DNA from: Metallosphaera tengchongensis | GTDB lineage: Archaea; Thermoproteota; Thermoprotei_A; Sulfolobales; Sulfolobaceae | DNA length: 64,000 nt | Direction: 5' to 3' | NCBI RefSeq assembly: GCF_013343295.1 | Contig: NZ_CP049074.1 | Location: 1,469,501 to 1,533,500, forward strand | Part shown: one piece after another, positions 26,338 to 38,387 of the stretch | How positions within the stretch are numbered: the stretch's first letter is position 1 | Layout: every line of letters starts with the position of its first letter | Made by a program: the position numbers and the translations under genes | Notes under the pieces: model-generated | The model's input: only the letters and a program-made list of their open reading frames with translations | Databases searched by the model: none | What the model was told of the DNA's origin: nothing

Positions 26338-28581
26338 ATGAGGAGTTATAAAGCAAACATGGATTTACTGGAGAAGCTCAACGAGGGTCTTAAGGTATTC
26401 AATGCGTCCCTAGCCCACGTATATACGGAGACTGCGCTAGACCCTGAAGTAGGACCTGAAGTGAAGGAAGTTGACCTTGACGAGAGACTGAAGGAAAACC
26501 TAATCGCCTCTGGGATAGAGAGGCTTTACAGGTACCAATGGGAAGCTATGGGCCTGATCCTCAAGGACAAGAACGTTGCCATAATATCTGGGACAGGTAC
26601 TGGAAAGACCGAGGCGTTCCTTATCCCCTTGCTCGAGAAGGCTATGAAAGGAGAAAGGAGTGTCCTCATTTACCCTACCAAAGCCCTGGCGAGGGACCAG
26701 CTAAGCAGGATTAACAACTTCACCCGAAGTCTAGACGTAAGTGTCAACGTCCTGGACGGAGACGTGGATAGGGAAACTAGAAGGAAGATATACGAAGACC
26801 CCCCAGAGGTCCTGATCACTAACCCCGACATGATCCACTTGGGACTATCGTTGTCCCCAGACTTCAGACATCTGATAAGGGGAGCTGAACACTACGTCGT
26901 GGATGAAATGCACGTCTACGAGGGAGTGTTGGGGTCTCACCTGAGGAGAGTCCTAGACAGGATAAGGGAAATAGAAGGGGAAATTCACGTCGTGGGGGCC
27001 AGCGGGACTATCGAGGCTTCCCCCTTCCTACTCAACGAGCTGTTCGGAGTTGAGGGACAGGTGGTGAGAGGGGTGTCCAGGAGAAGGGGGATGGCGATCC
27101 ACTCGCTGGTGAACTCAAACGGGATGAGCAGGTGGACCCTCTCAGCCTACCTTGCAGGTCTTCTGGTCAGGGAGGGGTTAAAGACTCTCGTCTTCGTGGA
27201 CTCTCAACAGATGGCCGAGAGGTTGGCAAAGATAGCTGAGAGGTTTGGAGCAAACCTGGCGGTTCACAGGGCGGGAATACTCAAGGAGGAGAGGGAGGAG
27301 GTGGAGGAGAAGTTGAGGAGCGGGAGTTTGCAGGGTGTGGTCGCTACACCGACGCTGGAGCTCGGTATAGATATTGGATCCCTTGACTCAGTAATAATGG
27401 CTGAGAACCCTCCGAGCTACTCCAAATACGTCCAGAGATCAGGGAGAGCCGGTAGAAGGAATAGGGTCGGTTTCATTTTCACGATCCTAGGGGACAGCCC
27501 AATAGATAGCTACTTTTTGAGGAGACCTCAAGAGTTCTTCTCGAGGAGGCTCACCCCTATAACCTTTGACAACACGAACATGGAGGTCCTCAAGGTCCAC
27601 GCTGCCTCTTACCTCCTGGAGAAGATGAGGCTCAAGAGGGAGGATTTACCCGACCTATGGGTAAAAGCGATGGAGGGGCTGGTACAGGAAGGGGTGGTCT
27701 CAGAGAATCATGGAACCTTCTACGCAACAAGCAGGACTAGGGACTTTGTAAGGTCCACATCACTGAGGAGTTCAGGTCCCGTTGTGGAAGTCAGTGCTGA
27801 CGGGAAGAAGATCGGGGAGAGGGAACTACCAGTTGCACTATATGACTTACACCCCGGGGCTCTCTACTTAGCATCCAAGAGGTCTTACGAGGTGAAGGAA
27901 CTGGACCTGAAGAGTCTAGAGGCTAGAGTAGTCAGGGTGAAGGACGACCCAGGTTACTACACTAAACCGCTCTACATGGTGGATTTAAGGGAATTTACTG
28001 AGGTCGAGGAGAGGAAGGTCTTGGGGCTTCCCGTAAAATATGGGGAGATGACCCTGACAATCTCAGTGATCGGATACGTAATCTACGACGCGTATTCCAG
28101 GAAGGAGAGGACCAGAGGGAGGGTCGAGTACGAGGACCCAATATCCTTTACCTATAAAACAAAGGGGTTGATCATAAAACATCCTGCTGTTGAAGAGTGG
28201 GACCTGATGTCCTCAATGGAGGCCTATCACGCCACGGAGCACGTCCTCATATCTGCTGGAAGAGTTGTGGCCGGTGCCTCTATGACTGACCTGTCAGGAA
28301 TTAGCTACCCATCAGGACACGTGGTGATCTATGACTCTACCATTGGAGGGAGCGGCGTCTCTCGACTGCTTTACCAGAGGCTGGAATCTGCGTATGACAT
28401 AGCCTTGGACATAGTGAAGAACTGCGACTGTGAGGACGGATGTCCGAAGTGTGTCTATGACCCATACTGCGGTAATAACAATAGGGTCTTATCAAGGAGG
28501 AAGTCCATGAGGCTGATCGACCTCGTACTTAAGGGAAATGAAGTAGAAGACGACTCACCTAAAGGGGAAAGCGTGAGGTAG
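26338..28581 (+). CDS. Hrq1-like DEAD/H helicase with MZB (DUF1998) domain
   Basis: The 747-residue superfamily-2 helicase has motif [19 protein letters not shown], motif [12 protein letters not shown], motif III SGTIE, and motifs V and [14 protein letters not shown] and [13 protein letters not shown]. The C-terminal [20 protein letters not shown] supplies four spaced cysteines of the MZB domain typical of Hrq1/YprA-type 3'-5' helicases involved in DNA repair. Length and order fit archaeal members. The ATG at 26338 is the first start after the divergent small gene. All motifs are intact. Confidence 0.9.
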
Positions 28582-35327: not shown

Positions 35328-36322
35328 AGAGCCAGTGCGTCCACTGTGGTTTCTGCCTGGAGGCTTGTCCTACATACGTTGTGACCAGGTCTGAGGTACA
35401 TTCCCCAAGGGGTAGGATAACTGCCGTAAAGCTCGGTGTTCCCACTGAAGGGATAGAGACCTGCATGTTTTGCAGGAGATGCGAGCTGGCCTGTCCCAGC
35501 GGAGTGGAATACGGAAAGCTCCTCCATAACGTTAGAAGGCCTACACCCCTTAAGTTCGCCGTGAACCTCGTAATGGAGAATCCAGCACTTGCATACAAGA
35601 TAATTAGGTCGGCCAGGGGTACCAACTCCAGGCTCTTGAGCAGAATAAGGACCTTTCTACCTGATCCAAGCGAACCTCTAGAGTATAGAGAGGAGACCCC
35701 AGACCTACTGTTGTTCCCCGGGTGCGTTACGTCAATCTCGTTCAGGAAAACCGTGGAGAACGCATTAAATTTCATTAAGTCGTTAGGTTACAAGGTGGAG
35801 ATAGTCAACGGGTGCTGCGGGCTTTCTCACTATAGTGAGGGGGAGAAAGGGAGAAGCAGTTTGTTGATCGAGAGGCTGAGGTCTAGGTTTCAGGGTAAGA
35901 GAGTAGTCTCCCTCTCAGCGAACTGTTCAGCCCACATGAAGGAAATGGGGCTTGAGATTGAGGACTTCTCCGAGTTCGCTCTGAAGCATATTAAGGAAAA
36001 AAGGGTGGACATTGAGTTAACGGTCCACGATCCGTGCCATGCTAACCTTGTGGGGTTGACCAAGGTTACCAGAGAGGTGTTGAAAAGACTTAACGTAAAG
36101 GTCAGAGAGATGGACGAACCGTCCTTTGAGTGCGGTGCAGGCGGAGGCTATTTCATCTTCCATCCTGAAATAGCTGACCAGGTCATGGAGGAGAAAGCTA
36201 GAAAGGTTAGAAAATCAGGTACTGAGTTGGTCTTGTCAACCAACCCAGTGTGTTCTATAGCCCTGGCCTTTAAGGGACTTAAACCCGTTCATCTAGCCGA
36301 TATCCTGTCCCATGGCAGTTAA
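35318..36322 (+). CDS. Fe-S oxidoreductase, GlcF-like (CCG domains)
   Basis: From ATG 35318 the protein is 334 residues. CVHCGFCLEACP and CMFCRRCELACP give two [4Fe-4S] sets, followed by two CCG-type repeats: FPGCVTSI...NGCCGLSHYSEG and HDPCHANLVG...FECGAGGG. These bind a further cluster in heterodisulfide reductase and GlcF families. It would take electrons from the GlcD-like flavoprotein to quinone. A longer frame from 35261 would overlap the previous gene by 67 bases and add a basic stretch not typical of the family, so 35318 is preferred. Confidence 0.85.
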   Translation: MGLESQCVHCGFCLEACPTYVVTRSEVHSPRGRITAVKLGVPTEGIETCMFCRRCELACPSGVEYGKLLHNVRRPTPLKFAVNLVMENPALAYKIIRSARGTNSRLLSRIRTFLPDPSEPLEYREETPDLLLFPGCVTSISFRKTVENALNFIKSLGYKVEIVNGCCGLSHYSEGEKGRSSLLIERLRSRFQGKRVVSLSANCSAHMKEMGLEIEDFSEFALKHIKEKRVDIELTVHDPCHANLVGLTKVTREVLKRLNVKVREMDEPSFECGAGGGYFIFHPEIADQVMEEKARKVRKSGTELVLSTNPVCSIALAFKGLKPVHLADILSHGS

Positions 36323-36778
36323 GATCTCTAGCCTGGCCCTTTCCCTCTCCCTCTCTAGGTCATACCCGTTCTCTTGCGCAACTTCCAGAACTTCCTTCCC
36401 TATTTCATTGCTCACGTAGATCCTAGGACACTCCCTGGCTTCCCTTAGATCCTGAAGATCTACCCCACTCTCTGAGGCCCTAACGGCAATCCCCCAGTCA
36501 CATCCTATGCAAATCTGCCTCCTGTAAGGAACGGGTAGTGCAAAAAGTTTTGCTTTAGCCATAGCCACCGAACCTGAGGGGAGGAACCACTTTATTGCAT
36601 CTAAGCCTAACCTAAGAAATGCTACCCCTAAATTCTTACCAACAACTGGGTAGTCCCTTTTCATGGATATGAACATGCCCCCTATTTCCTCAGGCCCTAA
36701 TGGTCTTTTCATGACGATCTCAGAGAACGCATTGGCGTTGAAATAAGCCCGGATCACGTCCCTTTCGAGAACATACAT
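36293..36778 (-). CDS. Hypothetical protein (161 residues)
   Basis: This protein is unrecognised. It begins MYVLERDVIRAYFNANAFSE and has a Cys pair in ICIGCDWGIAVRAS near residue 92. A Glu/Arg-rich helix (LERERERARLEIL) lies at the end. A TATA-like GTATATATATT on the minus strand lies upstream. It overlaps the convergent Fe-S gene by 30 bases and diverges from the parA gene across a 120-base AT-rich gap. Confidence 0.6.
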   Translation of the reverse strand: MYVLERDVIRAYFNANAFSEIVMKRPLGPEEIGGMFISMKRDYPVVGKNLGVAFLRLGLDAIKWFLPSGSVAMAKAKLFALPVPYRRQICIGCDWGIAVRASESGVDLQDLREARECPRIYVSNEIGKEVLEVAQENGYDLERERERARLEILTAMGQDIG

Positions 36779-36892
36779 GTTTATACTCTTTAAGTATCTA
36801 ATATATATACATTACGATAGTTTAAGTTATTATTATTAATTTAAGTATTTTTGTAAATGAAATCCATATTATCGTGAATTCTCCTTTTTAAA

Positions 36893-36909
36893 AGTATTCT
36901 GTGAATACT
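36893..36909. promoter_or_regulatory. Palindromic operator candidate at the parA promoter
   Basis: AGTATTC-TGT-GAATACT is a perfect 7-3-7 inverted repeat. It lies between the TATA-like TTTTTAAAAG (36885-36894) and the likely leaderless ATG at 36916, where a bound protein would block polymerase. CTCTAGAC (36909-36915 region) follows and shares the TCTAGAC core I recall for the Sulfolobus SegB binding motif. Confidence 0.5.
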
Positions 36910-36915
36910 CTAGAC

Positions 36916-37575
36916 ATGATTGTAACGGTCATTAATCAGAAGGGAGGAGTAGGGAAGACTACGACTGCTGTAAACCTAGCATACATTATGGCTAAAGACA
37001 AGAACGTAGGTCTTCTGGACATGGATCCAGAAGGGGGAACCTCGTTCTCCTTTGGTATTAGGAGGGATAAGAGGGAGTTTCCCATCGGAGGGAAAAGCGT
37101 CAATATATTTAACGTGGAGGTTTTCCCAGCCCACTTAGGTCTCCTTAAGCTAGAGCTCGGCGGTGAGGTGGAGGATGTGGTCAAGGAGATAAAGGCGTTA
37201 GGAAAGGATTACGACGTGTTAGTAATAGATACTCCGCCTAACCTGGGAACCTTGGCAGTTGCCTCCATGATTGCGGCGGATAAGGTCATATCCCCCGTTA
37301 CTCCCCAACCCTTGGCTATGGAGGCTGTAAGGAACTTAGACTCTAGACTACAGAGTCTAGGGAAATCCGCGTCTGCTTTCACAAACATGTCCAAGAAAGC
37401 TGTAGAGCTTGAGCTAAAGTCTGTCAAGTTCGTGCACGTCGCCATACCGCCGTCTAAACTCTTCTCTGAATCCTCTAGACTTGGAGTACCTGCATCAAGA
37501 TATGAGGAAGTGAGATTCAAGAAGGCTAGGATAGGAAAACTCTACGAGGAACTAGGTAAGGTGGTATTGGAGTGA
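36916..37575 (+). CDS. ParA/SegA-like partition ATPase
   Basis: From ATG 36916 the protein is 219 residues, the size of Sulfolobus SegA. It begins MIVTVINQKGGVGKTTTAVN, the deviant Walker A motif of ParA proteins, then LLDMDPEGG (A') and VLVIDTPPNLGTLA (Walker B). These ATPases drive chromosome or plasmid segregation with a DNA-binding partner. A TATA box about 25 bases upstream supports 36916 rather than GTG 36901. The gene overlaps its partner by four bases (GTGA). This could be the chromosomal segAB locus or a relic of an integrated plasmid. Confidence 0.85.
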   Translation: MIVTVINQKGGVGKTTTAVNLAYIMAKDKNVGLLDMDPEGGTSFSFGIRRDKREFPIGGKSVNIFNVEVFPAHLGLLKLELGGEVEDVVKEIKALGKDYDVLVIDTPPNLGTLAVASMIAADKVISPVTPQPLAMEAVRNLDSRLQSLGKSASAFTNMSKKAVELELKSVKFVHVAIPPSKLFSESSRLGVPASRYEEVRFKKARIGKLYEELGKVVLE

Positions 37576-38315
37576 GCGAACTAGATTTTTTACTTAAGCG
37601 GAAAAAGAAGGATGAACAGAAGAGTGGAGAGAGCGTAGAGAAGAGAACGGAGGGAAGAGTGCAGAGTGGAGAGAGCGTAGAGAAGAGAACGGAGGGAAGA
37701 GTGCAGAGTGGAGAGAGCGTAGAGAAGAGAACGGAGGGAAGAGTGCAGAGTGGAGAGAGCGTAGAGAAGAGAACGGAGGGAAGAGTGCAGAGTGGAGAGA
37801 GCGTAGAGAAGAGAACGGAGGGAAGAGTGCAGAGTGGAGAGAGCGTAGAGAAGAGAACGGAGGGAAGAGTGCAGAGTGGAGAGAGCGTAGAGAAGAGAAC
37901 GGAGGGAAGAGTGCAGAGTGGAGAGAGCGTAGAGAAGAGAACGGAGGGAAGAGTGCAGAGTGGAGAGAGCGTAGAGAGACCAAATATACATGAAGTAGAA
38001 TTAAACGTCGTTACAATCGGAAACGTAAAGCCCGACCTCCCACCTAGGGATGACGCCCAGGAAAATACGGAGACCCCGTCCTCTGGCATAGACGAAGTCG
38101 AGAAGTTAATGGGAAACTTTCTGGATAAGGATCCAAAAATAGGTGTATGGAGCTATCCGAGTTACATGGTCCTTCAATACCTGTTTCATACTAAGCCAGG
38201 GTTCAAAATGAGCAAAATGGCGAAAGACGCATTGGAGATAGGTATGAGACAACTTTTCCCTGATCTTTATTCCAAGGCCGAGAAAATAGCGAAAGATAAG
38301 GGACTACTTAGATAG
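37572..38315 (+). CDS. ParA partner (SegB-like) with eight 14-residue repeats
   Basis: The 247-residue protein starts with GTG overlapping the parA stop. Residues 1-17 are basic. Residues 18-129 are eight identical SGESVEKRTEGRVQ repeats plus a partial ninth, predicted to be a charged flexible or helical linker. Residues 175-247 (SYPSYMVLQYLFHTKPGFKM, SKMAKDALEIGMRQLFPDLY) form a compact helical C-terminal domain that resembles SegB-type DNA-binding ends. It probably binds centromere-like sites and stimulates the ATPase. The repeats are far longer than anything in the 109-residue S. solfataricus SegB. Confidence 0.75.
   Translation: MSELDFLLKRKKKDEQKSGESVEKRTEGRVQSGESVEKRTEGRVQSGESVEKRTEGRVQSGESVEKRTEGRVQSGESVEKRTEGRVQSGESVEKRTEGRVQSGESVEKRTEGRVQSGESVEKRTEGRVQSGESVERPNIHEVELNVVTIGNVKPDLPPRDDAQENTETPSSGIDEVEKLMGNFLDKDPKIGVWSYPSYMVLQYLFHTKPGFKMSKMAKDALEIGMRQLFPDLYSKAEKIAKDKGLLR
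37623..37976. repeat. Eight perfect 42-bp tandem repeats plus partial ninth
   Basis: The unit AGTGGAGAGAGCGTAGAGAA continues with GAGAACGGAGGGAAGAGTGC-AG and is repeated without a single difference eight times (37623-37958), with a ninth truncated at AGTGGAGAGAGCGTAGAG. The strand is almost pure purine. Since the unit is a multiple of three, copy number can change without a frameshift. Confidence 0.95.
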
Positions 38316-38327
38316 ACTGTTCCGCAA

Positions 38328-38369
38328 CTTAACTAATTTTAGATTTCTCTTAACTAATTTTAGATTTCT
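38328..38369. repeat. Two tandem 21-bp repeats after the partition genes
   Basis: CTTAACTAATTTTAGATTTC-T occurs twice back to back (38328-38348 and 38349-38369) with no mismatch, a dozen bases after the stop of the repeat protein gene. The T-rich units could act as a doubled terminator or a binding site. Confidence 0.8.
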
Positions 38370-38387
38370 ACTTGTTTATCCAGCTTC

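Follow-up and report, generated by a model that had tools for sequence, protein, structure and literature searches.

Judged by homology, the window, a stretch of 64,000 nucleotides on the complete 2.18-Mb chromosome of the heat- and acid-loving archaeon Metallosphaera, carries the ordinary Seg partition cassette (SegC, SegA and SegB) of a Metallosphaera chromosome, in which the middle of SegB is a perfect tandem array. We read this linker as an expandable polyampholyte tether that joins a SegA-contacting N-terminus to the DNA-binding domain, and give this reading a probability of about 0.55. The cassette and the 14-residue repeats of SegB are already published at genus level (PMC12284271). Relative to the accessible part of that article, the new elements are an array in the Sulfolobales archaeon HS-7, concerted evolution of the arrays, and codon-level conservation of a site nested in segA.

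The segC-segA-segB cassette

All three known Seg proteins are encoded at the locus. segA (36916-37575, plus strand) encodes a Walker-type ParA ATPase of 219 residues that belongs to Pfam AAA_31 and has SegA as its nearest relative; its match to the structure 7dut covers the full length (phmmer, residues 1-219, E = 2.2e-96) and confirms that the ATPase of the cassette, initially described as ParA, is SegA. Its start is most likely the ATG at 36916 rather than the GTG at 36901, and a putative TATA-box-like element, CTTTTTAAAAG, can be read at 36884-36894 (plus strand), approximately 25-30 bp 5' of this ATG. Divergent from segA and upstream of it, a segC homologue occupies 36293-36778 on the minus strand (phmmer, 8wq8 SegC, E = 1.4e-19), and it combines homology to SSO0033 with the expected place upstream of segA; that segC adjoins segAB in Metallosphaera has already been published. 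The first-pass annotation had correctly grouped segA and segB, but segC belongs to the cassette too, and the segA start moves to 36916.

The GTG start of segB (37572-38315, plus strand; 247 residues) lies at 37572 and shares a GTGA with the segA stop codon TGA at 37573-37575, which bears out the GTGA overlap described earlier. SegB begins with the motif MSELDFLLKRKK (37572-37620, plus strand), which is kept in 30/30 orthologues of the family and presumably contacts SegA. It is followed by the tandem array, by an acidic and polar non-repeat end of the linker (37978-38093, plus strand; pLDDT 31-50), and by a ribbon-helix-helix DNA-binding domain (38094-38312, plus strand). The last 73 residues match the structures 7duv and 7dv2 (phmmer, E = 3e-25), as anticipated from the likeness of the C-terminus to SegB, and an alignment of 20 relatives contains 19 invariant columns in this domain. 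The assignment to SegB is therefore based on the C-terminal ribbon-helix-helix homology, the gene overlap with segA and the conserved N-terminal tail. Of the initial label 'ParB/SegB-like', the second half holds by homology and the first by role only, as the fold is ribbon-helix-helix. In particular, the nuclease/CTPase and helix-turn-helix domains of a canonical ParB (CTPase clamp) were not found in the Pfam/NCBIfam search, in which the segB product matched no Pfam model and gave two weak, sub-threshold and unrelated NCBIfam matches.

This organization is that of the SegAB(C) systems of Saccharolobus solfataricus and Sulfolobus acidocaldarius, which share the SegA ATPase, the overlapping segB, the ribbon-helix-helix C-terminus, the conserved N-terminal tail and SegB-type sites around the locus, with segC nearby in Saccharolobus (PMC12284271, PMC11381335, PMC12557731). 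In contrast, SegB of S. solfataricus has 109 residues and lacks a repeat array. The ParF/ParG-type partition systems of bacterial plasmids have a similar build: a ParA-type ATPase is acted on by the flexible N-terminus of a small ribbon-helix-helix partner. By analogy of architecture and of the presumed role of the N-terminus, SegA/SegB may be likened to them.

SegB appears as a single-copy chromosomal gene of the family, with one copy per genome in 30 of 31 genomes and exactly one in all 28 that are well assembled. It adjoins segA wherever the neighbourhood was checked (29 entries), with an overlap of 4-8 bp in nearly all. A SegB profile run against 398 genomes sampled across the phylum found no member outside the family, and a search of mobile replicons gave no match in phages and one weak match in an archaeal plasmid. 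Across the family the flanking domains of SegB are conserved, while the length and predicted fold of the linker vary, its core between the N-terminal motif and the DNA-binding domain ranging from 23 to 213 residues in 30 orthologues.

Some other features of the locus deserve mention. Directly 3' of the segB stop codon, a perfect 21-bp direct duplication, CTTAACTAATTTTAGATTTCT, which is T-rich and terminator-like, occupies 38328-38369. The long minus-strand open reading frames that run through the array (37526-38089 and overlapping frames) are by-products and not genes, since the 42-bp period is a multiple of three and the unit contains no stop. A search of the window against Rfam found no structured RNA. 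The nearest Orc1/Cdc6 gene of the same genome (G000:C1:1642444-1643448) lies approximately 135 kb away from segAB; for M. sedula, oriC1 has been reported to adjoin segAB (PMC12284271).

Turnover of the SegB arrays

The array (37621-37977, plus strand) has a period of 42 bp and 8.5 copies with 100% match and zero indels (Tandem Repeats Finder, score 714), a regularity far beyond chance. At the protein level, the eight perfect copies described in the first-pass annotation were recovered as eight identical SGESVEKRTEGRVQ units, and a partial ninth was added to them. The unit is neutral in net charge, has few hydrophobic residues and is devoid of aromatics. The idea that the repeat is a mobile or dispersed element was rejected, since the 2.18-Mb genome contains no further copy.

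Among the relatives compared, we take G003 to be M. sedula and G005 to be M. cuprina; G004 is Metallosphaera javensis AS-7, G001 is M. yellowstonensis MK1 and G011 is Sulfolobales archaeon HS-7. G002 would be M. hakonensis, as its SegB has the 300 residues given for that species in PMC12284271. The SegB of M. hakonensis, described in section 7 of that article, likewise has perfect 14-residue repeats (12.5 of them) leading from the N-terminus to the DNA-binding domain, and the window's SegB differs from it in its unit SGESVEKRTEGRVQ, with more charge and fewer glutamines, its 8.5 copies and its 247 residues.

A survey of copy number, proposed in the first-pass annotation, gave 3.9, 8.5, 10.9, 11.0 and 12.7 copies in five sister species of Metallosphaera. 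The array is in frame in 5/5 species of this subclade, and its 14-residue unit is common to them and in register (R-V-Q-x-x-E/D-S/N-x-x-Q/K-R-x-E/D-x). Units are identical inside each array-bearing species and different between species. The arrays of G003 and M. javensis show two synonymous differences, each fixed in all copies, which amounts to concerted evolution. Judged from these sequences, the Metallosphaera arrays undergo rapid concerted turnover, and the variation of copy number between 4 and 13 may be neutral drift. In M. yellowstonensis, sister to the five array bearers, the linker looks similar and contains no perfect array. As a hint of heptad ancestry, some linkers that lack an array (those of M. 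yellowstonensis, G012 and G015) show elevated periodicity at lag 7 (z 2.8-3.1), though others do not and many lags were examined.

A second array is present outside Metallosphaera, in the SegB of HS-7 (AP024596.1; 994-1749 of L023), where 13.25 copies of a 36-bp unit encode the 12-residue EEKGLESTLKRE. It sits at the equivalent place and has a similar array length, but its unit is unrelated to those of Metallosphaera in sequence and in period, and is predicted to be helical. The HS-7 segB starts 13 bp past the segA stop codon, without overlap. The tree requires two array changes, and a topology that unites all array bearers in a single clade is disfavoured (AU test, p = 0.031), HS-7 forming a long branch. 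The HS-7 array is thus probably of independent origin, with a placement of HS-7 that is uncertain owing to its long branch.

Could such arrays be without function? Neutral slippage might have given an already disordered linker a perfect repeat that is merely tolerated, as would be consistent with the threefold variation of copy number among sister species, the lack of a perfect array in M. yellowstonensis and the fact that S. solfataricus SegB manages at 109 residues. The preserved reading frame of the arrays across the five-species subclade, the second gain in HS-7 and a net charge of 0 per unit in 5/5 Metallosphaera arrays (it is -1 per 12 residues in HS-7) speak somewhat against this explanation, although each is compatible with neutrality, and we regard it as the foremost alternative, if an unlikely one.

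Predicted fold of the linker

The published interpretation of the 14-residue repeats of Metallosphaera SegB is a β-helix modeled by AlphaFold2, for which a membrane link has been suggested from a resemblance to bactofilin (Kabli et al., 2025; PMC12284271). The repeats would thus form a solenoid domain that multimerizes or anchors SegB. The models of M. hakonensis SegB are of high confidence and display glutamine ladders (PMC12284271), the units of G002, G003 and G005 are heptad pairs that segregate small residues and charges onto opposite faces, and single-sequence AlphaFold2 predictions for the window array also yield β strands or a stack, at low confidence (pLDDT 64-75; five-model means from 58.6 to 45.4). 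More generally, charged residues and glutamines of the Metallosphaera units are mostly on alternate positions, as expected of a β strand, so that a real β solenoid is possible.

Several observations argue in the other direction. AlphaFold2 has been found to build confident yet unrealistic β solenoids from perfect repeats of random sequences, in 32 of 78 cases, and stacked buried charges have been proposed as a warning sign of a false solenoid (Pratt et al., 2025; PMC11795689). In the window unit, a lysine replaces one of two glutamines and a glutamate is on the inward face, and the five models are of only modest confidence and differ among themselves in it. Even the DNA-binding domain of the window's SegB reaches a pLDDT of only ~50-66 in the single-sequence prediction, indicating that the window model discriminates poorly. 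In the published dimer, the helix is lost in the best AlphaFold2-multimer model and the AlphaFold3 pTM is 0.4 (PMC12284271), and the HS-7 array is predicted by single-sequence AlphaFold2 as one continuous helix of 168 residues at a pLDDT of ~89. Altogether, a β-solenoid domain appears rather improbable, and we favour the linker as an expanded polyampholyte or mixed tether. The alternatives differ in their consequences, as by simple arithmetic the 119 residues of the array would measure ~43 nm when fully extended, 18 nm if helical and 4 nm if wound into a solenoid, and if folded in the last form the array would make a poor long tether.

The linker might also be prone to condensation and drive the formation of SegB-DNA foci by phase separation. 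The SegB proteins of relatives do make foci and compact DNA, and the window linker is a low-complexity repeat, but the array is net-neutral, has few hydrophobic residues and no aromatics, and S. solfataricus SegB, which lacks such a linker, is itself able to compact and loop DNA in vitro. We consider this reading very doubtful.

SegB-type sites and the proposed reach of SegB

Directly abutting the segA start, a putative SegB site-1-like element, GAATACTCTAGAC (36903-36915, plus strand), agrees by eye at 10 of 13 positions with STAGASTCTAKAG, the ChIP consensus established in relatives (PMC12284271). In S. solfataricus, a SegB site is known at the corresponding place directly upstream of segA. 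When the 20-kb surroundings of segAB are scanned at 20 loci, core sites of the TCTAGASTCTAGA type with one mismatch number 76, as against 11 in the reversed control. In the window there are four, at 27916, 35678, 37336 and 41577 (within 14 kb around segAB), compared with one in the control, and there is no excess across the whole genome of the organism (40 versus 38 in the reversed control).

The SegB-like site at 37336, TTAGACTCTAG, is nested in segA codons, with further ones at +7 and +14 (37336-37360, no strand assigned). A site is found at these same codons, which encode N-L-D-S-R-L, in 15 of 19 family representatives, with synonymous conservation in excess, and the score sum of 103 over 11 genera exceeds that of synonymous recodings (86.1 +- 3.9), which never reached it in 2000 trials; the recodings serve as the null, and the shared ancestry of the genera remains in the statistic. 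This conservation agrees with the published ChIP peaks over segC-segAB. The bases in question may be doubly constrained, as codons and as a candidate SegB site. Farther downstream, at 37474-37479, the TCT AGA codons within LFSESSRLGVP of segA form a TCTAGA but not the full two-half site; they belong to the stretch of segA where synonymous conservation peaks (alignment columns 184-189).

That the array DNA is itself a centromere-like tandem of SegB-binding sites within the gene is highly improbable: each Metallosphaera unit contains GTAGAG or GTAGAC, the HS-7 unit contains TCTAGAGTCCACA (by eye 11/13 to the S. solfataricus consensus), and two-mismatch sites are modestly enriched in linkers without arrays (8 versus 2.5 in synonymous recodings, P = 0.003), but none of the units stands out in site-likeness from synonymous recodings under local codon usage (P = 0.19-0.65). 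For the window array the proposal is rejected, as it has zero SegB sites even at two mismatches and its units do no better than recodings.

For the tether, the following scheme can be proposed. As shown for relatives, SegB dimers would bind clustered sites of the TCTAGA-S-TCTAGA type around segAB through their C-terminal ribbon-helix-helix domains, and SegA, sitting on the nucleoid, would be engaged by the short basic N-terminal tail of SegB. Between the two, a low-complexity, charge-balanced linker would in this genus have grown through slippage or unequal crossing-over of the 42-bp unit, with repeated re-homogenization. Lengthening a neutral tether would allow the SegA-contacting tails of DNA-bound SegB dimers to reach farther, and what is tolerated or selected would be a soluble, near-neutral and aromatic-free spacer, rather than one fold or one length. 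The adjustable spacer of the first-pass annotation fits a SegB built of a conserved N-terminal motif, a linker of variable length and a DNA-binding domain at the C-terminus, provided that 'adjustable' is restricted to variability in evolution. A broader proposition is more tentative, with chances somewhat below even: that linkers were expanded at least twice in the Sulfolobaceae, by unrelated units of opposite predicted structure homogenized by concerted evolution, that selection was for SegA-DNA reach and not for fold, and that the published β-helix is a prediction artefact.

No chromosome-segregation machine of the Sulfolobales is better defined than SegAB, and what is at stake is the way in which SegB links distant DNA sites to SegA. 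The published β-helix model may reflect the known bias of AlphaFold2 for perfect repeats, and the natural arrays of 4-13 units in sister species offer a ready length series for determining whether tether length matters.
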